From a virus, in the IMG/VR virus record IMGVR_UViG_3300009790_002093, positions 1 through 28,362 of that record: a stretch of DNA of 28,362 nucleotides, one strand, 5' to 3'. A program made the translations under genes and the position numbers. Under the pieces are notes generated by a model. The model was not told the DNA's origin and searched no databases. It worked only from the letters and a program-made list of their open reading frames with translations. This document shows, in pieces, positions 3,433 through 24,723 of this stretch (within the stretch, counting starts at the first letter, position 1; every line of letters starts with the position of its first letter).

Positions 3433-3644
3433 TATTCCTTATCCCCTTTCTTCTTAGATTGGTGGAGCGAGAGGGAATCGAACCCACGACCTTCTGGATG
3501 CAAACCAGACGCTCTCCCTACTGAGCTACCGCCCCTCTTTCTCTTGTTCTTTTCATCTACCATAAGAGTAGTTTCCCAAGCAAACCAACCTGCAAAGATT
3601 GTGATGACCAAAGGTATGATACAATTATTTAAAATCTCTATCAC
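3432..3644 (-). CDS. small membrane protein frame that runs through the tRNA-Ala gene
   Basis: An open frame from a likely GTG at 3644 (GGAGG lies 11 bases upstream; a TTG at 3671 is also in frame) to TAA at 3432. The first part looks like a real one-pass membrane protein: PLVITIFAGWFAWETTL and then a basic stop-transfer stretch (DEKNKRKR). The rest (GGSSVGRASGLHPEGRGFDS) is simply tRNA-Ala read as protein, a familiar annotation artefact. No stop codon separates the membrane segment from the tRNA, so either translation continues through the tRNA region on unprocessed RNA or the message becomes nonstop once the tRNA is cut out. A TAATG junction with the next gene keeps coupling possible. The membrane part is moderately likely to be expressed; the C-terminus is doubtful. 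Confidence 0.4.
   Translation of the reverse strand: MIEILNNCIIPLVITIFAGWFAWETTLMVDEKNKRKRGGSSVGRASGLHPEGRGFDSLSLHQSKKKGDKE
3460..3535 (-). tRNA. tRNA-Ala, anticodon UGC
   Basis: A complete 76-nt cloverleaf can be folded by eye. The acceptor stem GGGGCGG pairs with TCGCTCC, the D stem is GCTC/GAGC, and the anticodon stem TCTGG/CCAGA encloses the loop TTTGCAT with anticodon TGC. The T arm is GTGGG-TTCGATT-CCCTC with one U-U mismatch, the discriminator is A, and CCA is encoded. The acceptor stem carries a G3:U70 wobble, the classic alanine identity element, which agrees with the anticodon. The gene lies inside an open protein frame rather than in a gap. It presumably supports translation of GCA/GCG-containing phage genes. 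Confidence 0.95.
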
Positions 3645-6847: not shown

Positions 6848-6876
6848 ATTATAACAAATGGTTACCGCAATGTCAA
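6848..6876 (-). promoter_or_regulatory. consensus sigma70-type promoter upstream of rnh
   Basis: A perfect TTGACA (6871-6876) and a perfect TATAAT (6848-6853) are spaced by 17 bases on the minus strand, ahead of ATG 6822. The TGA stop of the iscU gene lies inside the TTGACA hexamer, so the two functions share bases. Confidence 0.88.
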
Positions 6877-7292
6877 CCGGAATTGTGTCGTCTATGTGCT
6901 ACTTTCTCTTCCCAATTCTCTATTGCTTTCCTTATCCCTTCCTCAGCAAGCACAGAGCAGTGTAATTTAATAGGTGGTAGTTCGAGAGCATCAGCGATGT
7001 CCTTGTCTTTAATAAGTTTCGCTTCTTCAATGGTTCTTCCTTTGAGCATTTCAACAAACATTGTTGAGGATGCGATTGCGGATCCACATCCATATGTCTT
7101 GAACTTGACATCTTCTATTACATCTCCTTCTGTGAGTTTAAGGTCTAGCTTCATAACATCGCCACAAGCTGGTGCTCCGACCATACCTGTCGCGACATTA
7201 GGATCATTAGGGTCAAATCGTCCCACAGAATGCTTCTGTGGATTCTCTAACACGTCGTTAAATCTTTTTACTACTTTCTCTGAGTATGCCAT
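6873..7292 (-). CDS. iscU: IscU-type Fe-S cluster scaffold
   Basis: A 139-residue full-length IscU/NifU-N protein. The three cluster cysteines are present with their contexts: GAPACGDVMKL (Cys43, with the regulatory Asp45), YGCGSAIAS (Cys69) and LHCSVLAEEGI (His111, Cys112). The chaperone-recognition element LPPIK (105-109), equivalent to LPPVK bound by HscA, is retained, so the protein could plug into host Fe-S assembly. It is the last gene of its unit and its stop overlaps the next promoter. An A-type carrier lies 400 bases upstream. This is a complete, apparently functional host-like metabolic gene. Confidence 0.94.
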   Translation of the reverse strand: MAYSEKVVKRFNDVLENPQKHSVGRFDPNDPNVATGMVGAPACGDVMKLDLKLTEGDVIEDVKFKTYGCGSAIASSTMFVEMLKGRTIEEAKLIKDKDIADALELPPIKLHCSVLAEEGIRKAIENWEEKVAHRRHNSG

Positions 7293-7678: not shown

Positions 7679-7993
7679 CTAAAATCCTACTGATACCCCG
7701 CAACCACAACTGGATACTTCATTCGGATTAATAAAATTAAACGATTCATTTAAACCGCTCTTTACAAAATCTATAACTGTCCCTTCTAGGTATGGCTTAG
7801 ACATCTCGTCTATAACTATCTTAAACTTACCGAAGTCTACCACGTGATCGCCATCCAACTTATTATCATATTTAAAAATATACTCGTAACCGTTACAACC
7901 ACCACCATTGATACCAATACGAATAGTATCTCTGCCTTCATTCTCTGTTCTCTCAACCGCTTTAAGTATTGCTGCATCTGTAAAATCTACCAT
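7679..7993 (-). CDS. iscA: A-type Fe-S cluster carrier (IscA/HesB/ErpA family)
   Basis: A 104-residue protein starting at ATG 7993 (MVDFTDAAILKAV). The three ligand cysteines of A-type carriers are in place: GGGCNGYEY (Cys33) and SSCGCGVSVGF (Cys96 and Cys98), and the length matches bacterial IscA. Such proteins pass Fe-S clusters from a scaffold to apo-enzymes. A longer reading from 8077 is possible but the extra residues do not belong to the family and coincide with the 39-residue membrane-protein gene, so I chose the inner start. IscU lies just downstream, so this phage encodes both scaffold and carrier. Confidence 0.9.
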   Translation of the reverse strand: MVDFTDAAILKAVERTENEGRDTIRIGINGGGCNGYEYIFKYDNKLDGDHVVDFGKFKIVIDEMSKPYLEGTVIDFVKSGLNESFNFINPNEVSSCGCGVSVGF

Positions 7994-8106
7994 AATAGGC
8001 TCGAACGCGTTGCTAACCACATTAATAGAAAAGGTAGTAGAATAGGTCCACCAACAAAGAGCACTAGCTCTAACCAAGCTTTAACTTCTGTGCCAATTTC
8101 TTTCAT
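7987..8106 (-). CDS. 39-residue single-pass membrane protein
   Basis: A short frame from ATG 8106, preceded by a purine-rich AAGAGAAGAG, to TAG 7987, overlapping the iscA start by 7 bases. After a short charged N-terminus (MKEIGTEVKAW) nearly the whole protein is one hydrophobic helix (LVLFVGGPILLPFLLMWLA) with Gly-Gly-Pro in the middle, ending ATRSSLLW. It resembles phage small inner-membrane proteins. No function can be assigned; a holin- or channel-like role is conceivable but unsupported. Confidence 0.55.
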   Translation of the reverse strand: MKEIGTEVKAWLELVLFVGGPILLPFLLMWLATRSSLLW

Positions 8107-8718: not shown

Positions 8719-9267
8719 TTATGCTTTTTTCTTCTTAGTCTTACGCTTTTTCGGCTTGTAAACCTTTTCCTTTACACCATAGGCCTTACGTTCTGTCTCT
8801 TCCATTTCGTAAGTCCATTCTGCCCCACAATCTGGGTACCAAACACCTATAGTCCTTTTAGGTTTACCTTTCCAAATAGAATCTTGAGTATGATAAGCCA
8901 TTGCTACACATTTGTATTTGACTTTCTTCTCCATATTCTCTCCTTGAAACAAGGATATCCATTCACCACCTCTTAAATACGCTTCACACTGTGATGCATA
9001 ACTAGCCCAAGTAGTTGATCTAGCTAATGCGCCTTTAGTTTTATTATGATTCCAGTCTCGTCTTTCAGACTGAGCTCGTGATTTAGCATTCTTTAGCCAA
9101 CCTCTGACTTTGTTAAATGCTAGAGGATGATCCTCCGGCAGATTAACTACGTCCTGGTGGTATTGTGCATACTTAGGTGGACTTTTTGCGGCTCTTGCCT
9201 TTTCGAGCCTTTTTGTTAGTACTTTCTTTTGCTTTGTACTTAGCTTCCGCTTCGCTTTCATTACCAT
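8719..9267 (-). CDS. conserved hypothetical basic protein
   Basis: A 182-residue protein with Lys/Arg-rich ends and a conserved-looking middle (YAQYHQDVVNLPEDHPLAFN, VRGWLKNAKS, SLFQGENMEKKVKYKCVAMAY, TIGVWYPDCGAEWTYEM). The middle resembles small proteins of marine T4-like phages, from memory. The C-terminus is nearly all Lys (KPKKRKTKKKKA). ATG 9267 requires a 95-base overlap with the glycosyltransferase gene; no later start would keep the conserved part. Function unknown; nucleic-acid binding is only suggested by charge. Confidence 0.65.
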   Translation of the reverse strand: MVMKAKRKLSTKQKKVLTKRLEKARAAKSPPKYAQYHQDVVNLPEDHPLAFNKVRGWLKNAKSRAQSERRDWNHNKTKGALARSTTWASYASQCEAYLRGGEWISLFQGENMEKKVKYKCVAMAYHTQDSIWKGKPKRTIGVWYPDCGAEWTYEMEETERKAYGVKEKVYKPKKRKTKKKKA

Positions 9268-10297
9268 TACGATTGCCCTCGATGATGGAGTTTAACAATC
9301 CCCTCCACTCAACTTCTCTAGAGTCCCAACTGTAGAAGCTATCTGCATAGACCTTCTGCATTTGTAATCTCTGAGCTAGTAGAGGAGCCCTTTCTTTATT
9401 TAAGTATAACTCAATTGCTTCAATAAGGCAACTCCCAAATGTATTAATGTGTGTTTGAGGGTTCTCAGCAAACTGATACATGTAAGTCCAATTTGCAGCT
9501 GTTTCATATAAAGCAGCTAAGTTACTATGCACATTCATCACTCCAGCCGACATAGCTTCCATAAGAGCTATACAACTAGTCTCTTGCCATATAGATGGAT
9601 ATGCGAATATGTGTGCTTTCTCTAATGCTTCTCTAACTTTCTCATTAGGTTGGAACCCATGATAAGTCATCTTAGGATGTTTATCAATAGCATCAAATAA
9701 TGGCTTGTATGGCTCATCTCTCTCAGGCCATCCATAAGCATTAAACGATGAGAACACATCTAAGTGTGCATTAGGATACATTTCAGATACTCTTTCGAAT
9801 ACAGGAATTAGTAATTCTAATCCTCTGTGTGGAGTAGTATGGTATATAATATTTAATTGTTCGTGTGGGTCTGGTTTCTTGACATCACTAGGGGATGGAT
9901 TCATACAGTTCTTCAATACGACTCCAGCTTCAAATGGAACACCTAAGAATGCATTATACATTTGTTGTTGCCAATTTGATACAAATACTAACTTATCAAA
10001 CTTCTGCCATCCTCCATCTTTAAGATGTTGTGACTCTGGATCCATAGGTAAATCATGTAGCCATAAGACTTTATACTTATCGTCTTCAAGTTCTCTTACT
10101 CTTGATGGTATGATTTGAAATTGGTCTAGTAGTTCTTTATCTAAACGCTTATAGAGTTCTTCTTTCATTAACTCTGTTCCGCCTTTAGCGTTTTTATCTA
10201 CCTCGTTGGTAGATGGGATTGGTCGACCTGATGGGTCAATGATTTTAGTCTCTTTTGTCAGCTTTTGTCCAGCTGAATCAACTATTTTTAGTTCCAT
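9173..10297 (-). CDS. GT-B glycosyltransferase (family 4/group 1-like)
   Basis: A 374-residue GT-B protein. The N-terminal domain contains KGGTELMKEEL and VLWLHDLPMD. The C-terminal nucleotide-sugar domain has NIIYHTTPHRGLELLIPVF and the signature FAYPSIWQETSCIALMEAMS near residues 243-262, the E-x7-E region of retaining family 4 enzymes. The likely role is transfer of a sugar to phage DNA bases, virion glycoproteins or host surface glycans. The last 40 residues are a Lys-rich, probably disordered tail that overlaps the next gene in another frame. ATG 10297 follows AGGATATATT. It lies directly downstream of glutaredoxin. Confidence 0.85.
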   Translation of the reverse strand: MELKIVDSAGQKLTKETKIIDPSGRPIPSTNEVDKNAKGGTELMKEELYKRLDKELLDQFQIIPSRVRELEDDKYKVLWLHDLPMDPESQHLKDGGWQKFDKLVFVSNWQQQMYNAFLGVPFEAGVVLKNCMNPSPSDVKKPDPHEQLNIIYHTTPHRGLELLIPVFERVSEMYPNAHLDVFSSFNAYGWPERDEPYKPLFDAIDKHPKMTYHGFQPNEKVREALEKAHIFAYPSIWQETSCIALMEAMSAGVMNVHSNLAALYETAANWTYMYQFAENPQTHINTFGSCLIEAIELYLNKERAPLLAQRLQMQKVYADSFYSWDSREVEWRGLLNSIIEGNRNGNESEAEAKYKAKESTNKKARKGKSRKKST

Positions 10298-10958: not shown

Positions 10959-11297
10959 TTATTTTAAGTCAACCCTTTTCTTTTCTAGGATCTTAATTCG
11001 TTCGTCTAAGGCATCAATAGTTTCGCAATAACCATCGAACTCTTCGATACCACATTTAGGATGTGAGTCTTTCTCTAGTCTCAGTATCCTCTCAGCCAAT
11101 TTAGGGTATTGACTTAACCACTTTTCTTCTCTTTTAGCTAGATCTATATCATATTTATCAGCCACGTATTCCATGAAGTCATCAATCTTATCCTGGAACC
11201 AAACACCAAATTGAGTGTTCTTAAACCATTGATAAAACGAACTTCCGATTACAGATGATAATATAGATCTAATGGCTAATAGCATCAGCGTATACAT
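10959..11297 (-). CDS. hypothetical protein with membrane-associated N-terminus and coiled-coil C-terminus
   Basis: A 112-residue protein. The first 25 residues are hydrophobic (MYTLMLLAIRSILSSVIGSS) and could be a membrane anchor. The middle is Trp/Phe-rich (FYQWFKNTQFGVWFQDK), and the C-terminal half is a charged helix (ETIDALDERIKILEKKR) likely to form a coiled coil. GGAG is 5 bases before ATG 11297, inside the end of the methyltransferase gene. Family not recognised. Confidence 0.6.
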   Translation of the reverse strand: MYTLMLLAIRSILSSVIGSSFYQWFKNTQFGVWFQDKIDDFMEYVADKYDIDLAKREEKWLSQYPKLAERILRLEKDSHPKCGIEEFDGYCETIDALDERIKILEKKRVDLK

Positions 11298-11814
11298 GTT
11301 TTCTCCATTCAGAATATATACGACTGCCGGTATCCCATCTCAAATCTACAACATCACAACCAACTTCATTTGCTATAGCGATATTATCACCAAACGTCCA
11401 GGGATAGAATTGTATTTCATCTACACCTTTCCAAGGATGATCCCCTATTCCGGGATTCTGTCTCCAATAAATTCTACCACCAGGTTTTAAATATTGGACT
11501 GCACATTGCACTTGTATTAGGACTTCTTCCCTTTCACCGAAGTTTAAGGATCCTAAACAGAATAATACATCCCACTGTTTATCCATTTCAAAGTCTTCTA
11601 TGGAAACTATCTGATCTGCTTCTTCATTTGCAGGATCAATACCATAGAGACGATCGCCGAAGATTGGTTTGAATAAATTGTAACCACAACCAACGTCGAG
11701 TATTGTTTCAGTTTCTTTAATCTTATTTATGAGATTCCAGCCTGATAATTCAAATTTATTATAATTCGGTTTCCAGCTGTCTCTAAAATAATTTATCACT
11801 CTTCGTTTGGCCAT
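11269..11814 (-). CDS. class I SAM-dependent methyltransferase
   Basis: A 181-residue Rossmann-fold methyltransferase. Motif I is ILDVGCGYN (38-46), the acidic ribose-binding residue is in YGIDPANEE, motif post-II is QWDVLFCLGSLNF, and motif III follows LKPGGRIYWRQNPG. Short length and lack of a substrate domain suggest a small-molecule or sugar substrate. Its start overlaps the sulfotransferase-like gene by 19 bases, so the two may act on a common product, for example capping glycans. Specificity cannot be read. Confidence 0.82.
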   Translation of the reverse strand: MAKRRVINYFRDSWKPNYNKFELSGWNLINKIKETETILDVGCGYNLFKPIFGDRLYGIDPANEEADQIVSIEDFEMDKQWDVLFCLGSLNFGEREEVLIQVQCAVQYLKPGGRIYWRQNPGIGDHPWKGVDEIQFYPWTFGDNIAIANEVGCDVVDLRWDTGSRIYSEWRKHVYADAISH

Positions 11815-12485
11815 GTGTTCCCTGAGGCATTAAGATCAGTTAATTCTAGTTGTGTATTCACAAAATCTTTAGCTCCGATTCCATTAACAGAATCAGTAAT
11901 AGCAGCTTTTACCATTTCATCAGTAGCTGTTCCTTTCGCGGGTTTAATATATTTTTGGTTAGTATTAATTTCTATGTGTTCGTGTGATGCTTCTATATCT
12001 ATTGGTAACTCTAATTGTTTACTGAGCTGGTTCAAGTATTTCTCCTTATATAAGAATAATAGTTCGGTAGATATGAAATGATCTACATTCACTTCTTTTA
12101 ATATTTCTAAGAATACTGTTGTTGTGAATTGGGATCTAACTCTTGTTTGCTGTTGTAATAATATATTTTCATCACGTCCAATAACTATAAATTCAACATC
12201 GATGTTAAGGTCTTTTGCTTCTTGAATAAGTCTTTCATAATCTGGGATCCTATTAACACCTTGCCACACATACGGACAAGATATACTTGTTACATTATAT
12301 TGTTTTAGTGGGAGATCATTAAGGCTTTGTTCGCCTGTCCAGACTTTCGCGAAAGGTTCTTTATGATGACCTTCCCAATAGTCTTCCATCTCCCATCCAA
12401 ATACATCTTCATGTGCTGATAGAATCTTAGCCCACAAATGATTTCCTGATCCTTGGGGGCCTGTGATTATGTAGAGCTTTTTCAT
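11796..12485 (-). CDS. P-loop protein, sulfotransferase-like
   Basis: A 229-residue protein beginning KKLYIITGPQGSGNHLWAKI, a nucleotide-binding loop followed by HLWxxI as in sulfotransferases, where this loop holds the 5'-phosphosulfate of PAPS. A later VEFIVIGRDENILLQQQT could correspond to the 3'-phosphate-binding Arg strand. No kinase Walker B is evident. If it is a sulfotransferase, it would add sulfate to a sugar or small molecule. It has a 4-base ATGA overlap with the symporter gene and a 19-base overlap with the methyltransferase gene. A general P-loop kinase is the alternative. Confidence 0.65.
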   Translation of the reverse strand: MKKLYIITGPQGSGNHLWAKILSAHEDVFGWEMEDYWEGHHKEPFAKVWTGEQSLNDLPLKQYNVTSISCPYVWQGVNRIPDYERLIQEAKDLNIDVEFIVIGRDENILLQQQTRVRSQFTTTVFLEILKEVNVDHFISTELLFLYKEKYLNQLSKQLELPIDIEASHEHIEINTNQKYIKPAKGTATDEMVKAAITDSVNGIGAKDFVNTQLELTDLNASGNTWPNEE

Positions 12486-13861
12486 CTCTTACTTATTAAC
12501 ATTCCTATTGTTGGTGGCGCTATTAACGCTGTTAAAGAAGCATAGAATATTGATCCCATTGCATAGAATGGCATAGCACATAGGAATCCAAGACCTATAC
12601 CATAGAATAAACCGTTACCGGAATATAAACCTGGTCGTGCTATAGCTGTCAATGTTGGGATGAATAAACATGTCCCCATAATACTAAAGAATAAGAAGAT
12701 ATCTCCCATGGATACCTTATACATTGCAACTGCTAATCCAAGACACGCTAAGGCAACCATGCCATGTCTAGCGTTCTTAACGGATGTTTCTGGTTCAGAG
12801 AAATCATTTCCAATTATGTTACTTATTGAAGATAATTGACTATCAATGATTGATACTAAGCCAGCCATAATCGCAAATGTAAATAGTGCTGCTACCCAAG
12901 AAGGTAATAACGTTCCTATTGTAATAATATTAACATTATATATGTTATCGGGCTCTACAAGAATATTTGAGCCTGCACCGATGAATCCTATGTATCCCAT
13001 AGCTAATGGAATGCATATAAAGATGCATGCTGCTAATACAAATGCTGGTATGATGTGGTTCTTCTTGATAGCAAATGCTCTCTGATAGAAGTTATTGTCT
13101 CTCCATGGTCCAGCCAAGTGACCTAGGAATGCTGCTATACCAAAGGAGGTAAAGACACCCCAGCCAAAAGATCCAATAATGCTACTGCCATCACCATCGC
13201 CCACCCCATCAAAACGAGGAGTAATCCCAGCACCCATATCAGGATGGCTAAGAAAAAGGGCCAGAATACCAATAACAGTAGTCCAAACAACACCAATTTT
13301 AATAATTTCCGTAACAACTGTAGCCTTTAGTCCATTTAATAAAACATACGATAATGCAATCAATGTCATTATCCCTATAGCTATATTATAACTCATTCCG
13401 GTCAAGATGGCAACCGTTGTTCCACCTGCAATCAAATTAATAGCAAATGCACATACAGTTAAAGCAAGCATTTCTACTTGATATATCCTATGTGCTTGTC
13501 CACCATAGTTCTCTTGAATAAATCCAGAAATCGTAAATCCTTCAGGCGATTGTGTGCGTAGTTTATACGCGTAACCTGCAAAGAACATTAGTGTTAAGAA
13601 ATTACCTAGACAGAACCAAAATAGCCCTGCTATACCGTTCATATACGCTTGTTGTGCGCTGATAAACAGTCCCGGCGCCCATAACCATGCCGCAGCAATA
13701 GAAAGCGCACCAGACGCGAAATTAAGCTCTCTACGAGCCAATAAAAACGATGGTTTATCGTTATTATACCCGCTAGAAAAGAGGTATACTCCAGCGAAAG
13801 AAATCGCTGCATATGCGGCTAATAACCCATAACCGACAATGGGATCAAATAAAGGAAACAT
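12482..13861 (-). CDS. sodium/solute symporter (SSS family)
   Basis: A 459-residue polytopic membrane protein with about twelve to thirteen hydrophobic helices. It shows SSS-family hallmarks: an N-terminal helix followed by DKPSFLLARRELNFASGAL, the TM1-like SIAAAWLWAPGLFI, FTISGFIQENYG, PWRDNNFYQRAFAIKKN in the middle, and IMAGLVSIIDSQLSSISNII, the sodium-site helix with adjacent Ser residues. The family couples sodium entry to uptake of sugars, amino acids, urea or similar solutes; substrate is not predictable here. The frame is intact and full length. The start (ATG 13861) follows the oxygenase-like stop as TAATATG. Complete solute transporters are unusual in phage genomes. Confidence 0.9.
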   Translation of the reverse strand: MFPLFDPIVGYGLLAAYAAISFAGVYLFSSGYNNDKPSFLLARRELNFASGALSIAAAWLWAPGLFISAQQAYMNGIAGLFWFCLGNFLTLMFFAGYAYKLRTQSPEGFTISGFIQENYGGQAHRIYQVEMLALTVCAFAINLIAGGTTVAILTGMSYNIAIGIMTLIALSYVLLNGLKATVVTEIIKIGVVWTTVIGILALFLSHPDMGAGITPRFDGVGDGDGSSIIGSFGWGVFTSFGIAAFLGHLAGPWRDNNFYQRAFAIKKNHIIPAFVLAACIFICIPLAMGYIGFIGAGSNILVEPDNIYNVNIITIGTLLPSWVAALFTFAIMAGLVSIIDSQLSSISNIIGNDFSEPETSVKNARHGMVALACLGLAVAMYKVSMGDIFLFFSIMGTCLFIPTLTAIARPGLYSGNGLFYGIGLGFLCAMPFYAMGSIFYASLTALIAPPTIGMLISKR

Positions 13862-13862
13862 A

Positions 13863-14357
13863 TTAAAATCTCACAAAAAAGCTCAATGTTAATCGAGCGT
13901 CATCTATACTATTGCCAAAAGTATTCTCAATGGCATGCCTAATTCCGGCGTTCCATAAAACATATCTATTCCAGACATTTTCTATGGTATGCTTACCCTC
14001 TTCAAAATCTGTACCAGACCGTTCTGGTATTGGATCCTTAGAAAGATAAACAACGCCTGCATAACTATATTCGTCATCTGTGTGGTATTTGTTTAACCAA
14101 TTAGGATGTTTCATATCCTCTTCAGATGTGTAATGGTAATAGCAATCAATATCAGATATTGACTTACCTTCATTGCCCAACGCACGATAAGTTTGTGCTT
14201 TTAAATATTCAACATTTATAGATCTTGGCAATCTTTCGGTTCTATGACCGATCCATGAAACTCCAGGCACCTCTGAATGGTGTCTAAAATCACATGATAG
14301 AGCCTCTTCGCGAACGTCAAGGCTTCTATCGAAAAACCCATCTATAATGTGAATCAT
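13863..14357 (-). CDS. 2OG-Fe(II) oxygenase-like protein (DUF6445-like)
   Basis: A 164-residue protein with the layout of a double-stranded beta-helix dioxygenase. It has His92-x-Asp94 in KYHTDDEYSYAGVVYLS, a GTDF strand, a distal His141 in YVLWNAGIRHAIENTFG, and Arg155 in DARLTLSFFVRF, where 2-oxoglutarate would bind. The pattern resembles DUF6445 and prolyl-hydroxylase-like proteins, which are often found near flavin halogenases in bacteria (from memory). The product would hydroxylate a peptide or small molecule. It starts at ATG 14357 right after the beta-barrel stop (TAAAATG). Fold well supported; activity inferred. Confidence 0.72.
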   Translation of the reverse strand: MIHIIDGFFDRSLDVREEALSCDFRHHSEVPGVSWIGHRTERLPRSINVEYLKAQTYRALGNEGKSISDIDCYYHYTSEEDMKHPNWLNKYHTDDEYSYAGVVYLSKDPIPERSGTDFEEGKHTIENVWNRYVLWNAGIRHAIENTFGNSIDDARLTLSFFVRF

Positions 14358-14358
14358 T

Positions 14359-14979
14359 TTAGAACTTTACAGTCCACATGACTGTATATTCTACTATTTT
14401 ATCAAAATCACCCTTTGCACCATATGCTAGAGCTCCAACATGTAATGTAGACTTATTGCCTACAGGGATGTCAAATGTCATTCTGGACTTGTGTCCAATA
14501 TATACATCTTCACCGCCTTTGTATTGCCATCTTGGTTCATAAAAGCTAGACAAATATAAACGATCTTCCCAGATTGTTAATTTGTTAGCTAAACGTAAAT
14601 GCAAACCTGCTGAACCTGGTGTAGGTCCGGCTGATCCGCCATCAATGAATGTTATCTTAGGTTGAACCCACCATTGCCATACATTTCCAACTTTAGGAGA
14701 TGTATAGATAAATTGATTCCATCTAAGAGTTCCATTACCTCTTTTCTGGTATATGAGACCATATTGCCAATTCGGATTTTTATTGAATTTATTGTAGTAT
14801 TCAAAATGATAATCTGAATCGAATTGATCCATTCCAGGTCTTAACTGTAGATACTGATCTCCGTCAGTTAAGTTAAGATTGTATTCGGGATTTTCCCATT
14901 CTTCCGCTGCATTAGTAGTCGGGGCTAATAAGAGCCCTACGCTCACTAATGATGCCATCATTAAGTGTTTTATATTCAT
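14359..14979 (-). CDS. secreted outer-membrane beta-barrel candidate
   Basis: A 206-residue protein from ATG 14979 (AGAGG lies just upstream; an earlier in-frame start at 15003 is less likely). It has a clear signal peptide (MNIKHLMMASLVSVGLLLAP, cleavage near TNA/AEEW). The mature part is rich in aromatic, alternating-polarity strands (WQYGLIYQKRGNGTLRWNQF, LYLSSFYEPRWQYKGG, STLHVGALAYGAKGD) and ends in MWTVKF with a C-terminal Phe, the signal recognised by the BAM complex. This points to a small 8- to 10-strand barrel in the host outer membrane, unusual for a phage. The first 68 bases of coding sequence overlap the previous gene in another frame. Confidence 0.75.
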   Translation of the reverse strand: MNIKHLMMASLVSVGLLLAPTTNAAEEWENPEYNLNLTDGDQYLQLRPGMDQFDSDYHFEYYNKFNKNPNWQYGLIYQKRGNGTLRWNQFIYTSPKVGNVWQWWVQPKITFIDGGSAGPTPGSAGLHLRLANKLTIWEDRLYLSSFYEPRWQYKGGEDVYIGHKSRMTFDIPVGNKSTLHVGALAYGAKGDFDKIVEYTVMWTVKF

Positions 14980-15496
14980 ATACCTCTGTACTCCATCTTT
15001 CACTTAGTTTATCTAGAACACTATTGTAGGTATGATTCTCTACATTAAATGCTCTCTCCATATATCCAGCTATATTCACTTCGTGAGCTTTAACTGCATC
15101 TATGATCTTATTAAAAATACGATTACTCTGTTCGAACGATCTATCACCAAACACTTTGTGCCAGAATAATAATCTCACTTCTTCAGAAGTATCGTAGATA
15201 TTTATAACATTTCTAACACCTGCTTTATAGAGTCTAGCTATAAGCGGATTGTTAAGATAATGCGTTGTTAATGTAGGTTCATCCCAACATATCATATCCT
15301 TTATATCCTCTGCATGCTTATCTTTATTCCATGGATAAGCATAGTCAGGCATTGTTAAGGCCATCACAGGATACTCAATAGGTGGATATTTATATCTATT
15401 ATTTTCATCATGTTCTAATGGAAAATTTCCATTTAACAGATTAGCTACGAAGTCCCCTCCGCAACCAGGAACAAACTTTATTAGTGTTTTATCCAT
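14912..15496 (-). CDS. P-loop-like protein of unknown function
   Basis: A 194-residue protein beginning KTLIKFVPGCGGDFVANLL, which could be a degenerate nucleotide- or PAPS-binding loop as in phage sulfotransferase-like proteins. A second strand (GVRNVINIYDTSEEVRLLFW) fits an alpha/beta fold. There are no other secure motifs. It is the first gene behind the promoter at 15502-15530 and overlaps the beta-barrel gene by 68 bases, which suggests coupled expression of the two. Confidence 0.6.
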   Translation of the reverse strand: MDKTLIKFVPGCGGDFVANLLNGNFPLEHDENNRYKYPPIEYPVMALTMPDYAYPWNKDKHAEDIKDMICWDEPTLTTHYLNNPLIARLYKAGVRNVINIYDTSEEVRLLFWHKVFGDRSFEQSNRIFNKIIDAVKAHEVNIAGYMERAFNVENHTYNSVLDKLSERWSTEVYEYKTLNDGIISERRALISPDY

Positions 15497-15501
15497 ACTT
15501 T

Positions 15502-15530
15502 ATTATAACACATTGTTTCTGTCAATTCAA
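15502..15530 (-). promoter_or_regulatory. sigma70-type promoter downstream of the halogenase gene
   Basis: A -35 TTGAAT (15525-15530) and a perfect TATAAT (15502-15507) are 17 bases apart on the minus strand, only 6 bases from ATG 15496, so the transcript would be nearly leaderless or start close to the gene. The -35 lies within the last codons of the halogenase gene. A TTGACA also occurs, but with only 12 bases to TATAAT. Confidence 0.6.
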
Positions 15531-16763
15531 CTCGTGTTTGTAATTAGGTGCAGTAGGATCCAAGCCTAGATTAGCCATATTCAATTTTAATTGAACAGTA
15601 TTCCATGGTCCTACTTTTCTCATTATATCTCTTTGAAATTGTTTTGTTGGTCTCTTAGAACCTTCTTCATGATATATCCATTCTGATTTCCTGAGTATAT
15701 CAGAGCGTCTTCTATCTTTTCTAGCCTCTTCAAGGCATTTGATTCCTCTTTCCTGGGCAAATTCCCAGAAAGGAGTTTTGTATTTAGAACCTGCAGCATA
15801 GTGTATCATTATAATCATCTCTGCATCTTTCATAAAGATATGCATCTTCTCATTAGCATGTTCTTCATCATCGCTACTTCTATCTGCTTGGATTATTCTC
15901 AACATGGTATCAATACTAGTAGCTTCCATTGGCTCTAAAAAGAATCCTGCATTGCCATTATATACTACTTTACCATCAAAGAATTTCTTTCTATAATAGT
16001 TATTAAATTCAATATTATTAACACTATTATAATCTGGATCTAACTTATGTATTCCCCAAAGTTTAACTACATCTTGTCTAACTTCGTCCGCAGTATTTAT
16101 GTCTTTATTATATAGATATCCTACGCTGCATCTATTAGCTAACGGAACCATAAACACCCAACCAAAAGGCATTGCTATTGTTTTTGTATGTCTAAATTTA
16201 GGAGCATCCCATGGACATTGCGTAATGTGAGCTGCGTTCACAGGAATATAATCTGGTATGATACAATCTTCTAAGTCTGGCTTACCAGCACAATATATTA
16301 TTTTATCATGTGGTCCTTCATGCTCTTCTACATCTAAAGGTCTAGGTATAAATGCGGCATGTGTTCGTATCTGTGGATGTTTTTCTAATCTATTAAATAC
16401 CATGTGTTGAAATTTTTTAGCGTTGAAGTGGGCACCTGCGGTACCAATAGGAAAGGTATGCATGAAATCAGTCTTACCCCAATTCTGATAATAGATACCT
16501 TCTTTAACTTGATAATCGACTTGATCTAATCCACAATAACTTGCACCTAATTTTCTATTCCATAAGTCTGGAAATGTTATTGTAGTTCCTTCACCGACTG
16601 GGGCTGTAGGTATAGTTGGATCATAATACCAATCGACATGCTCTATGTTATCATACAGTTTATCTTTTGCATTATGATAATGAAATCTATCTTCTAATAG
16701 ATGTAGCATCGATATACAACCAGCCGTTCCTCTTCCTACGACTGCGAGTCTTCTTTTTTTCAT
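15522..16763 (-). CDS. flavin-dependent tryptophan halogenase family protein
   Basis: A 413-residue FAD protein of the tryptophan halogenase family. The dinucleotide fold is VVGRGTAG (8-15), PVGEGT occurs at 55-60, and the catalytic-Lys region VKEGIYYQNWG carries Lys87, equivalent to Lys79 of PrnA. FLEPMEATSI (275-284) matches the family FLEPLESTSI. The W-x-W-x-I-P halogenase motif is altered to GWVFMVP (201-207), so true halogenation is uncertain; the enzyme may hydroxylate or act on another substrate. The start at ATG 16763 follows a TAATATG junction with the 20-residue microprotein. Two starts up to 30 bases upstream exist but lie in that small gene. It is the last gene of the primase-nrd unit. 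Confidence 0.86.
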   Translation of the reverse strand: MKKRRLAVVGRGTAGCISMLHLLEDRFHYHNAKDKLYDNIEHVDWYYDPTIPTAPVGEGTTITFPDLWNRKLGASYCGLDQVDYQVKEGIYYQNWGKTDFMHTFPIGTAGAHFNAKKFQHMVFNRLEKHPQIRTHAAFIPRPLDVEEHEGPHDKIIYCAGKPDLEDCIIPDYIPVNAAHITQCPWDAPKFRHTKTIAMPFGWVFMVPLANRCSVGYLYNKDINTADEVRQDVVKLWGIHKLDPDYNSVNNIEFNNYYRKKFFDGKVVYNGNAGFFLEPMEATSIDTMLRIIQADRSSDDEEHANEKMHIFMKDAEMIIMIHYAAGSKYKTPFWEFAQERGIKCLEEARKDRRRSDILRKSEWIYHEEGSKRPTKQFQRDIMRKVGPWNTVQLKLNMANLGLDPTAPNYKHELN

Positions 16764-17457: not shown

Positions 17458-18500
17458 AGTTTAAATCCTTTAAATGTGTTCTCATCGACGTCTTTATTTA
17501 CGCCACCTGTAATATAGCTACTAATCTCAGTTTCCTGTGGAGCTACTTGAACAGAGGATCCGGAGATCCATTTCTGAGTCCAAGGTAATGGATTAGAGCC
17601 ACCCTTAAAATTATGCTTCATTCTAATTGCACTACATCTTTTAGCTGCAATCCATTCAACATAAGTTTTTAATATCTCTGCATTAAGTCCAATCATAGAA
17701 CCATCTTTAAATAGGTATTCAGCCCATTGTTTTTCTTGTTCTACAACCTTTTCCATTATATCTAATACTTCCTCTTCACATTCATTTCGAATTTTAACAA
17801 ACTCTTTATCATCAATTGGTAATGCTTTAATCATAGCTGTTGTAAATGCTAAATGAACGTTTTCATCTCTACATATAAACTTAATAATCTTAGCGTTACC
17901 TTCCATTTTCTTTAACTCCGCGAATGCCCAACTGCAGGCGAAGGATACATAAAATCTAATTCCTTCTAAGGCATTCACAGCGTTAAGACATAACCATAAA
18001 TTCTTTTTAGTCGGATTCTCAATCAAATCATCGTAATACTTACTAATGTCTGCTGCACATTCCGTTATTTGTGGTATGTTTAACAATTCATCAAAAACTA
18101 CACTAGGATCCGAATAAACATTTCTAATAATATGTGTATAGGATCTACTATGTATGGTTTCAACAAATGTCCATGTTTCTATAAAATTTTCTATTTCTGG
18201 TAATGATACAATAGGTAGCAATGCAATATTAGGTGCTCTACCTTGTACACTATCTAATAGTATTTGTCTTTTTAAATTACTTGTGAATATATGTTGTTCT
18301 GTTTCTGTTAAATCTTTAAAGTCTTTTGAATCTCTTAGTATATCTACTTCTTCAGGTCTCCAAAAGAAACCTAATTGTCTATCTGTCATCTTATCAAACT
18401 GTGGATATTTTATATCATCGAACCTAGCGATATCACAAGGCCCATCAAAAAACATTTTTCTTGCTTTATTCTTCTTCTTATTTACCTTAAAAACTGACAC
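17454..18500 (-). CDS. nrdB: ribonucleotide reductase class Ia, beta subunit
   Basis: A 348-residue NrdB. Diiron ligands are present: Asp83 (ILLDSVQGRAP), Glu114 and His117 (FVETIHSRSYTHI), Glu179 (NALEGIRFY), Glu213 and His216 (RDENVHLAF). The radical Tyr121 lies in SRSYTH. It generates the tyrosyl radical used by NrdA to make deoxynucleotides. The start is GTG 18500 with GAGG 7 bases upstream, and it overlaps the PRMT-like gene by 19 bases. All residues needed for activity are seen. Confidence 0.95.
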   Translation of the reverse strand: MSVFKVNKKKNKARKMFFDGPCDIARFDDIKYPQFDKMTDRQLGFFWRPEEVDILRDSKDFKDLTETEQHIFTSNLKRQILLDSVQGRAPNIALLPIVSLPEIENFIETWTFVETIHSRSYTHIIRNVYSDPSVVFDELLNIPQITECAADISKYYDDLIENPTKKNLWLCLNAVNALEGIRFYVSFACSWAFAELKKMEGNAKIIKFICRDENVHLAFTTAMIKALPIDDKEFVKIRNECEEEVLDIMEKVVEQEKQWAEYLFKDGSMIGLNAEILKTYVEWIAAKRCSAIRMKHNFKGGSNPLPWTQKWISGSSVQVAPQETEISSYITGGVNKDVDENTFKGFKL

Positions 18501-19438
18501 GATTCTTCCTCAAATGGATTATTATAATAATCCTTTATATAATTATACAATCTCTCCTTTTTGTATTCAGGGGCTTGATGTGGAGCTGCCCAATTATTTA
18601 AATCTCTAGGTATATTCTCATATGAATAATCACCCAACCATGCTCTCCACCCTAATGAATTGTATTCTTTCTTTGTTACTCTTTCAATTACCTTTTCTTC
18701 CATATTATACATTATTGCATTATCACAATAATTTATTTTATCGCCTCTATTACTTAGATCCCAAGTCCAAATAGGCTCACCTATCTTTTCTATATCACAC
18801 CTGGCACCACACATCCCTCTTATTTGTTTATCTGTCCAATCTTCTATTGTTTCTTTATAGTCAAAATGAAAATCTCTTATAGCTTTTCTAAACATTAAAG
18901 GATCATATTCTACATCATCTGGTACATGCCAATTTGATGCTTTATATGGAAAGAACTCGACTTTATTGGGATATACAGTATTAATATCAAATCCTTGTTT
19001 AGCTATATTCCATATTGTCTTAAATATAAATTCATCAAAGACAATATGACCAAACATTTCATGAATGAATATATCAGTATCTCTAAAATCATCTAGATTC
19101 ATTTCATTTGTAGCGGCTTTAGCAACGGTTAATCTTGGATCATTACCACACATCCTTGCAGTAGCTTGACATGCACCTTCCCAATGATCGATTGCATATA
19201 CTTTCTTAGCACCATACTTTAAACATAGCCATGCTAATATACCAGATCCACAACCCATATCCATAACAACTTTACCTTCAACATTAGCTTCAATAAAGTC
19301 ATGATATGCATTTGTTCTTTCAGGATCCAAAGCACATCTAAACTCAGAGACTTCTCCTAGTGCTTCGCCAGATAATCTGGGAACTGTAAATCTAGGGACT
19401 TCTCCAAATGTTGCTATATTCTTATCTAAATTGTACAT
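18482..19438 (-). CDS. PRMT-like class I methyltransferase
   Basis: A 318-residue protein with motif I VVMDMGCGSGILAW (57-70), the acidic strand VYAIDHWEGA, and IFIHEMFGHIVFDEF (123-137). In the last, Glu127 and Glu136 are nine residues apart exactly as in the double-E loop of protein arginine methyltransferases. The C-terminal half looks beta-rich, as in PRMTs, but I cannot find the THW loop. It may methylate arginine on a protein, or a related guanidino substrate. It lies between nrdA (13-base overlap) and nrdB (19-base overlap), which is unusual. Family resemblance is good; substrate unknown. Confidence 0.75.
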   Translation of the reverse strand: MYNLDKNIATFGEVPRFTVPRLSGEALGEVSEFRCALDPERTNAYHDFIEANVEGKVVMDMGCGSGILAWLCLKYGAKKVYAIDHWEGACQATARMCGNDPRLTVAKAATNEMNLDDFRDTDIFIHEMFGHIVFDEFIFKTIWNIAKQGFDINTVYPNKVEFFPYKASNWHVPDDVEYDPLMFRKAIRDFHFDYKETIEDWTDKQIRGMCGARCDIEKIGEPIWTWDLSNRGDKINYCDNAIMYNMEEKVIERVTKKEYNSLGWRAWLGDYSYENIPRDLNNWAAPHQAPEYKKERLYNYIKDYYNNPFEEESCQFLR

Positions 19439-23943: not shown

Positions 23944-24723
23944 TTAGTTATCTATTAACGAATTGTCTACTAGTTCCACATATTTATCAATACTATGATC
24001 TGCAACGAAATCAAAGAAATTACCTTTCTTTATTGCATGCCATGTTCCTGTCCAGAAGCACTCTGTCTTCTTCCAAAAACCAGGATTTTGATAACAATTA
24101 TCCAAGTGGTCGTAGTATACACATTCCCCAGTGTGACTATAGAATGCCCATGATGGTGGGATCCTAGTCACTACGTCATTGTTGTTCACAAATCGGTAAT
24201 GTTTAATATTATTATCTAATAAAGTCTGGAACTTTGCACCCCCAACTCTTGGAGATCCATAAGTAAATAAACCATCTACTTTATCAGAACCTAATCTAGA
24301 AGCAAATACTGTTGCCATAGCGGCACCTAATGAATGACCTGTTAGAATATACTTCTTATATAAAGACTTATATTTTATTTTCTTCATCCATGCTTCTATA
24401 TCGTCTTGAACTTTATCAACTTCAGTTTGAAATCCTTCATGGACCTGAGCTTTATTTGAAGCTTCAGATTGGTCTTTCCAGAATTTTAAATCTGCAGTTA
24501 TGTCATTCAACTTATCAGGTTGTGTTCCTCTAAATGCGATATAAGCATTTTTATCTTTTGTTGCGCACACTACTTGAGCTCCATTGTCATCAATGAACTT
24601 AACGTTTTTGAATCCTTCGGATCTAAGTAATCTTGCACATGAATCATTATATACTACTTTGGATAACTTTACAGTGACTAGAGCGTCTTCATAAACTTCT
24701 TTATCAATTATAAATCTACTCAT
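23944..24723 (-). CDS. class 3 lipase (alpha/beta hydrolase)
   Basis: A 259-residue lipase. The oxyanion strand is YIAFRGTQP (64-67 FRGT), the nucleophile elbow is GHSLGAA with Ser131, the acid is Asp183 in NNNDVVTRIPP, and the His is His243 in FVADHSIDKYV, giving a complete Ser-Asp-His triad. No signal peptide is present. The family cleaves lipid esters such as triglycerides and phospholipids. It shares an ATGA overlap with the o-spanin gene, so expression with lysis proteins is likely; it may attack host membrane lipid. Triad positions are read from sequence, substrate inferred. Confidence 0.88.
   Translation of the reverse strand: MSRFIIDKEVYEDALVTVKLSKVVYNDSCARLLRSEGFKNVKFIDDNGAQVVCATKDKNAYIAFRGTQPDKLNDITADLKFWKDQSEASNKAQVHEGFQTEVDKVQDDIEAWMKKIKYKSLYKKYILTGHSLGAAMATVFASRLGSDKVDGLFTYGSPRVGGAKFQTLLDNNIKHYRFVNNNDVVTRIPPSWAFYSHTGECVYYDHLDNCYQNPGFWKKTECFWTGTWHAIKKGNFFDFVADHSIDKYVELVDNSLIDN

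Follow-up and report, generated by a model that had tools for sequence, protein, structure and literature searches.

Which genes in the densely packed block at 11269–16763 of this phage DNA belong together, and what could they do for the phage? The window analysed here, the whole 28,362-base IMG/VR virus record IMGVR_UViG_3300009790_002093, carries in 5.5 kb a run of tailoring, transport and envelope genes. The original prediction saw in it a possible undescribed phage system of seven genes, which could import or modify a small molecule or glycan, or remodel the host envelope. We find that uncultured aquatic phages, including this one, repeatedly carry a membrane importer, a protein with a predicted sulfotransferase fold and a methyltransferase-like protein, in this phage together with a predicted outer-membrane pore. 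This suggests that they import an outside molecule during infection and chemically modify it.

The block and its annotation

All genes in and around the block lie on the minus strand, and the seven genes of the original prediction do exist as it described them. The features are:

11269–11814 (minus strand), MT, a small class I SAM-methyltransferase-like protein of 181 aa
11796–12485 (minus strand), ST, a protein of 229 aa with a predicted sulfotransferase fold
12482–13861 (minus strand), SYM, an SSS-family (SLC5-like) symporter of 459 aa
13863–14357 (minus strand), a 2OG-Fe(II) oxygenase-like protein of 164 aa
14359–14979 (minus strand; stop at 14359, ATG at 14979), OMP, a predicted outer-membrane beta-barrel with signal peptide and KdgM/NanC-like fold
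14912–15496 (minus strand), a PGCGG glycine-loop protein of 194 aa, called P-loop-like in the original prediction
15502–15530 (minus strand), a promoter-like site just upstream of the ATG at 15496
15522–16763 (minus strand), a flavin halogenase-family protein of 413 aa

MT overlaps ST by 19 bp and ST overlaps SYM by 4 bp. Gaps of 1 bp separate SYM from the 2OG-like gene and this from OMP, OMP overlaps the PGCGG gene, and the halogenase lies 25 bp further upstream. Such compactness alone is ordinary for a phage; it is the conservation across phages that is not chance. In Pfam, the halogenase (PF04820, 97.9 bits, cut-off 21) and SYM (PF00474, 39.2 bits, cut-off 22.8, residues 39–354) pass the cut-offs. 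MT matches methyltransferase models only below cut-off (0.007–0.1), but shows the motif DVGCGYN...GIDP, and D40, G42, C43, G44, N46, A66, D67 and N120 are invariant in 26 aligned relatives. The 2OG-like protein is below cut-off as well (PF13640, 0.055), but possesses H92-x-D94, H141 and R155. DUF6445, which the original prediction had connected with this block, was not hit at E≤1. ST, OMP and the PGCGG protein match no Pfam family, and the latter lacks a Walker A motif; the identity of ST and OMP comes from the alignments and models made here.

The promoter-like site (TTGAAT-17-TATAAT with TG before the second hexamer) would fit a separate transcription unit beginning with the PGCGG gene. However, it is only a consensus match (10 of 12), and promoter-like sites in the region are not above shuffles (48 against 44.2). 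The late-promoter motif TATAAATA was not found above chance either. At the DNA level, the region has no match among 50,697 phage records.

Conservation of the cassette

A scan of 2.9 million viral contigs of IMG/VR returned 55 relatives of SYM at 42–61% identity. As in all our scans, loci were found by exact short patterns and the best 80 kept, therefore the counts describe close relatives, and all of these loci are on metagenomic contigs without known hosts. When the proteins of the window were searched against these loci, ST and MT returned in nearly all of them, although most of the contigs share little else with the window. With profiles, ST is found in 51 of 55 loci and MT in 50 of 55 (52 at a looser threshold). 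The four loci without ST, among them L054 (L-numbers denote individual loci), end inside SYM at a contig end, and of the loci with room on both sides only one lacks MT. Clustering of all neighbours yielded no other real gene family in every group.

The 46 complete loci fall into 11 SYM clusters below 75% identity, with six arrangements (SYM-ST-MT, MT-SYM-ST, divergent and spaced forms). Across clusters the distances of SYM and MT are uncorrelated (rho -0.07, p 0.64) and those of SYM and ST only weakly correlated, so the genes have been recombined and still stay together; ST starts within -60 to +20 bp of the SYM end in 36 of 46. As a control, 80 loci from related phages, anchored on the window's own NrdB, a neighbour of the block, carry none of nine profiles. 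Fisher's test gives 6.5e-33 for ST, which is only indicative, as it ignores relatedness and the NrdB loci are shorter (mean 11.9 kb against 15.1 kb). The contrast of 51 of 51 uncut loci against 0 of 80 is, however, not in doubt. Thus, the original prediction's own criterion for refutation, genes scattered with no co-occurrence above chance, came out the other way, and that the cassette is a real module is near certain.

Its membership differs, however, from the one first proposed. In the T4-like relatives L003, L004, L007 and L047 the order is PGCGG protein, OMP, SYM, ST, MT, the same as in the window, and L054 shows the first three before its contig ends. The PGCGG relatives upstream of OMP (L004, L047/L186, L054, L007/L164 and L003) share 23–27% identity. 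The 2OG-like gene is inserted between OMP and SYM in the window only and has no relative in any SYM, ST, MT or TctA locus fetched; an unrelated 2OG-type family sits in 22 of 55 SYM loci. The halogenase, placed by the original prediction in the preceding transcription unit, has no relative in any SYM locus, and a distant relative appears only on three TctA contigs, about 6.5 kb from TctA. Its best match among isolates is Cyanophage S-RIM4 at 40.5%. Scans of IMG/VR with each of these two proteins found no relative by exact pattern. Therefore, the halogenase is probably a neighbour and not a part, and membership of the halogenase and of the DUF6445/2OG-like gene is not supported.

ST and MT are larger families than SYM; more than 590 viral contigs match the ST loop. 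Around ST without SYM we found a TctA permease (PF01970, 6.6e-91), TctC-type binding proteins (PF03401, 3e-18 for one type, 0.005 and below cut-off for the other), a second sulfotransferase-like family (ST2, invariant G-x-P-G-S-x-W), a 2OG-type oxygenase family (invariant H125-x-D127, H180, R190) and a kinase-nucleotidyltransferase fusion with an APS kinase match above cut-off (PF01583, 1.2e-11). The latter scores below the equivalog cut-offs of NCBIfam, its second domain resembles NMN adenylyltransferase (NMNAT), and it is rare beside SYM (5 of 55), so that a supply of PAPS is plausible rather than shown. A profile comparison of ST and ST2 gave 27% probability over 29 columns, hence homology is not shown. 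No TctB was recognised beside TctA in the loci read, by inspection and not with a TctB model. Small outer-membrane barrels also sit between TctA and TctC in four loci (L234, L237, L244, L258). Of 100 non-redundant ST loci, 42 have SYM, 30 have TctA or TctC and 28 neither; 26 of 80 MT loci also have neither transporter, so ST and MT have other roles too.

To test this association independently, a scan was anchored on TctA alone. Of 79 further loci, 66 have MT, 45 ST2, 42 the 2OG family, 28 ST and 14 the APS-kinase-like family. The MT and ST profiles came from SYM loci, so this is not circular for them, whereas those for ST2, 2OG, TctC and APS kinase came from ST loci, which the TctA set overlaps in part. 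Two unrelated importers therefore share one tailoring set.

A search for a cellular ancestor found no close cellular SYM in a pattern scan of 84,980 species. Profile hits in 29 of 398 genomes of the phylum of Massilia are weak, and the neighbours of the best ones were uninformative except for one distant relative of SYM, which sits between genes that read, judged by eye, as a CoA-transferase and a CitE-like lyase, a carboxylate-use context. ST was found in five bacterial loci only, two of them in Massilia and Janthinobacterium, and in 1 of 398 genomes, the one on which the search was centred. ST and MT relatives have no match in the 50,697 phage records, and ST, MT, ST2, the 2OG family, TctA, TctC and the porins tested have no PHROG at 1e-3; SYM belongs to PHROG 20720 (3e-72), of unknown function. 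Nine proteins gave no match to PADLOC models of known anti-phage defence systems at 1e-3.

Predicted folds and comparison with known systems

The AlphaFold2 model of ST, built from 24 viral sequences, has a pLDDT of 90.6. The best Foldseek hits are sulfotransferases, and a second structural comparison ranks PAPS sulfotransferases first (4gox, olefin-synthase ST domain, Z 11.8; 4gbm 11.7; tyrosylprotein sulfotransferases 10.6–11.3), ahead of kinases at about 10. With the olefin synthase and curacin ST domains and the tyrosylprotein sulfotransferases the model shares the fold (Z 11–12 over about 160 residues, 2.8–3.3 Å), the glycine-rich 5' loop and an invariant Arg assigned to the 3' motif, at only 12–18% identity. 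GPQG-GNH, K20, R104 and S139-x-E141 are invariant. However, the usual Ser of the 3'-phosphate motif, its position assigned by spacing, is Gln112 in 23 of 24, and sulfate transfer is inferred from the fold.

The model of OMP shows a signal helix and 11 strands, against the 12-stranded monomeric barrel of KdgM/NanC porins, at a pLDDT of 79.4. Foldseek alone gives no hit below 0.001, but in the second comparison the top five matches are all KdgM/NanC-family acidic-oligosaccharide porins, with KdgM, NanC and the Vibrio galacturonate porin first (4fqe Z 14.9, 2wjr 14.5, 8xua 13.6), at 4–8% identity and without a sequence-family match. Since barrels resemble one another, this is a moderate inference, and a shared fold does not show the same substrate.

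For SYM the closest solved relatives are DUR3 urea-proton symporters (9vim, 9j7c), with a profile match near whole length at 2e-31. Of the urea-site residues mapped in UreA (PMC9783183), both stacking Trp (W82, W84) and D286 are kept in all 24 members (W59, W61, D255), but the other five are replaced in every one: N279 to H248, T282 to G/A251, Y106 to F83, A110 to N87 and Y289 to F258. Together with H248, the nearby Q260 and R261 are invariant. Therefore the substrate is probably not urea and possibly anionic, the latter by fold and residue analogy only. At the canonical Na2 site, which marks Na+-coupled members, the positions aligned to SLC5A7 are S or A337 and I or V338 in 24 of 24, so the second Ser is missing; the H+-coupled DUR3 also lacks it. 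Membership of the SSS family stands, but Na+ coupling does not follow.

A viral tctA was already listed as an auxiliary metabolic gene in SUP05 viruses, in the same survey as a viral 2OG oxygenase (PMC4164917), but singly and with its role unknown, and we found no linkage to MT, ST or TctC reported there. An analogy may also be drawn to rhizobial Nod-factor tailoring, in which NodPQ supply PAPS and the sulfotransferase NodH and the methyltransferase NodS act on one small molecule. These are not homologous as a set, and nod clusters export their product whereas this cassette has importers. Among open-licence papers we found none on the combination. Each part is of a type already known; the combination appears undescribed.

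A proposed import and tailoring cassette

In our best explanation, which we hold with moderate confidence only, the OMP barrel would let a small, probably anionic solute through the outer membrane during infection and SYM would carry it into the cytoplasm. ST would transfer sulfate from PAPS to it, or to something made from it, MT would methylate it, and in many phages a 2OG oxygenase, by hydroxylation, and a second sulfotransferase-like enzyme would act too. As other phages keep ST, MT and the oxygenase but swap SYM for an unrelated tripartite tricarboxylate (TctA/TctC) importer, the common element is import plus sulfo/methyl tailoring, not one transporter. Our analysis establishes the conserved linkage, the reshuffled gene orders, the exchange of transporter families, the sulfotransferase fold of the ST model and the KdgM/NanC-like model of OMP. 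The direction of transport, sulfate transfer with PAPS as donor, the action of the enzymes on the imported solute and its anionic nature are inferred, without biochemistry, and the porin is kept only in the T4-like relatives of the window. The interpretation of the original prediction is thus partly supported: a conserved system with an outer-membrane barrel and an inner-membrane importer fits import and modification, while envelope remodelling is not excluded but has no direct evidence.

Other explanations appear less likely. Plain nutrient uptake, in which the transporters with the porin simply feed the infected cell, as phage PstS or Amt are thought to do, and ST and MT merely live in the same accessory region, would agree with the complete and intact transporters, with the earlier listing of phage tctA and with the carboxylate-use context of the one cellular relative. 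However, it does not explain why two unrelated transporter families both travel with the same MT and sulfotransferases in reshuffled order, nor their absence from all 80 control loci, and we consider it unlikely. Somewhat less likely still is a remodelling of the surface, in which ST, MT and oxygenase decorate host lipopolysaccharide or capsule and block superinfection, while porin and transporter alter the envelope or supply the precursor. Sulfation and O-methylation are common decorations of surface glycans, some ST loci have glycosyltransferase-like neighbours, and the window has a group 1 glycosyltransferase at 9173–10297, but no glycosyltransferase family is common to the SYM groups and a cytoplasmic importer is not needed for it.

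A modification of virion proteins or DNA by ST, ST2, MT and 2OG enzymes, such as tyrosine sulfation or hydroxylation, with the transporter independent or supplying a cofactor, is improbable. The nearest solved folds of ST include tyrosylprotein sulfotransferases and some ST loci lie next to genes that look structural, but the transporter linkage remains unexplained and no structural gene is common to the SYM groups. Mere hitch-hiking by chance proximity in a hyperplastic region, although such regions hold many tailoring genes, is already contradicted by the control, by the presence of ST in all 51 uncut SYM loci and by six orders in 11 clusters.

A farther-reaching and doubtful possibility is that uncultivated phages run their own small-molecule pathway. 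They would import a precursor by interchangeable transporters (SSS or TctA/TctC, with an outer-membrane porin in some) and convert it by viral sulfotransferases, a methyltransferase and oxygenases into a sulfated, methylated metabolite, in some with a viral PAPS supply. This would be a viral secondary-metabolism module rather than nutrient support.

Phage transporters are usually reported one at a time as nutrient genes. Here, two unrelated importer families are repeatedly tied to the same sulfotransferase and methyltransferase families, in phages missing from the collection of known phage records. This turns a set of unknown phage genes into one testable question, namely what the phage imports and sulfates, and gives a first hypothesis for viral tctA (PMC4164917) and for phage sulfotransferases, whose function was called unclear in a 2023 paper (PMC10580990).

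Other genes of the window

Outside the cassette, the window holds several further genes, which were identified mostly by their matches to Pfam families:

3460-3535, a single tRNA-Ala(TGC) gene
6873-7292, NifU/IscU-type iron-sulfur cluster scaffold (PF01592, 1.5e-38)
7679-8077, A-type iron-sulfur cluster carrier (PF01521, 4.8e-14)
18482-19438, methyltransferase of 318 aa (PrmA, PF06325, 1e-7)
23944-24723, class 3 lipase (PF01764, 1.8e-26)

The two iron-sulfur cluster genes lie close together. The methyltransferase gene is located between the two ribonucleotide reductase genes and, judged by eye, its sequence looks like that of a protein-arginine methyltransferase; a relative at 31% is found in the same place in L007, one of the T4-like viral loci. 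The lipase gene stands next to small membrane proteins; in a phage, a role in lysis or at the envelope is possible.

Other contexts of the ST and MT families

The family of ST, the protein with a predicted sulfotransferase fold, also occurs in other surroundings. In L289 and L290 (about 8.4-10.7 kb), two loci from Janthinobacterium and Massilia genomes, it stands beside a ferritin-like protein and a cupin-like protein, and the same ferritin-like family recurs beside ST in phage loci. ST was also found with phage-like neighbours on three contigs (L286-L288) binned into a Nitrosopumilaceae, a Rhodospirillaceae and a Rhodobacteraceae MAG; these look like viral contigs in MAGs. A second context, without transporters, was seen in about 14 loci (within L058-L078), in which ST is located beside a glycosyltransferase-like gene and a larger methyltransferase-like gene. 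Furthermore, expanded arrays are found beside the TctA permease gene: in the locus L240 (12899-19342) several copies of the 2OG family, of the small methyltransferase-like MT and of the second sulfotransferase-like family ST2 follow in a row, like a multi-step tailoring pathway.
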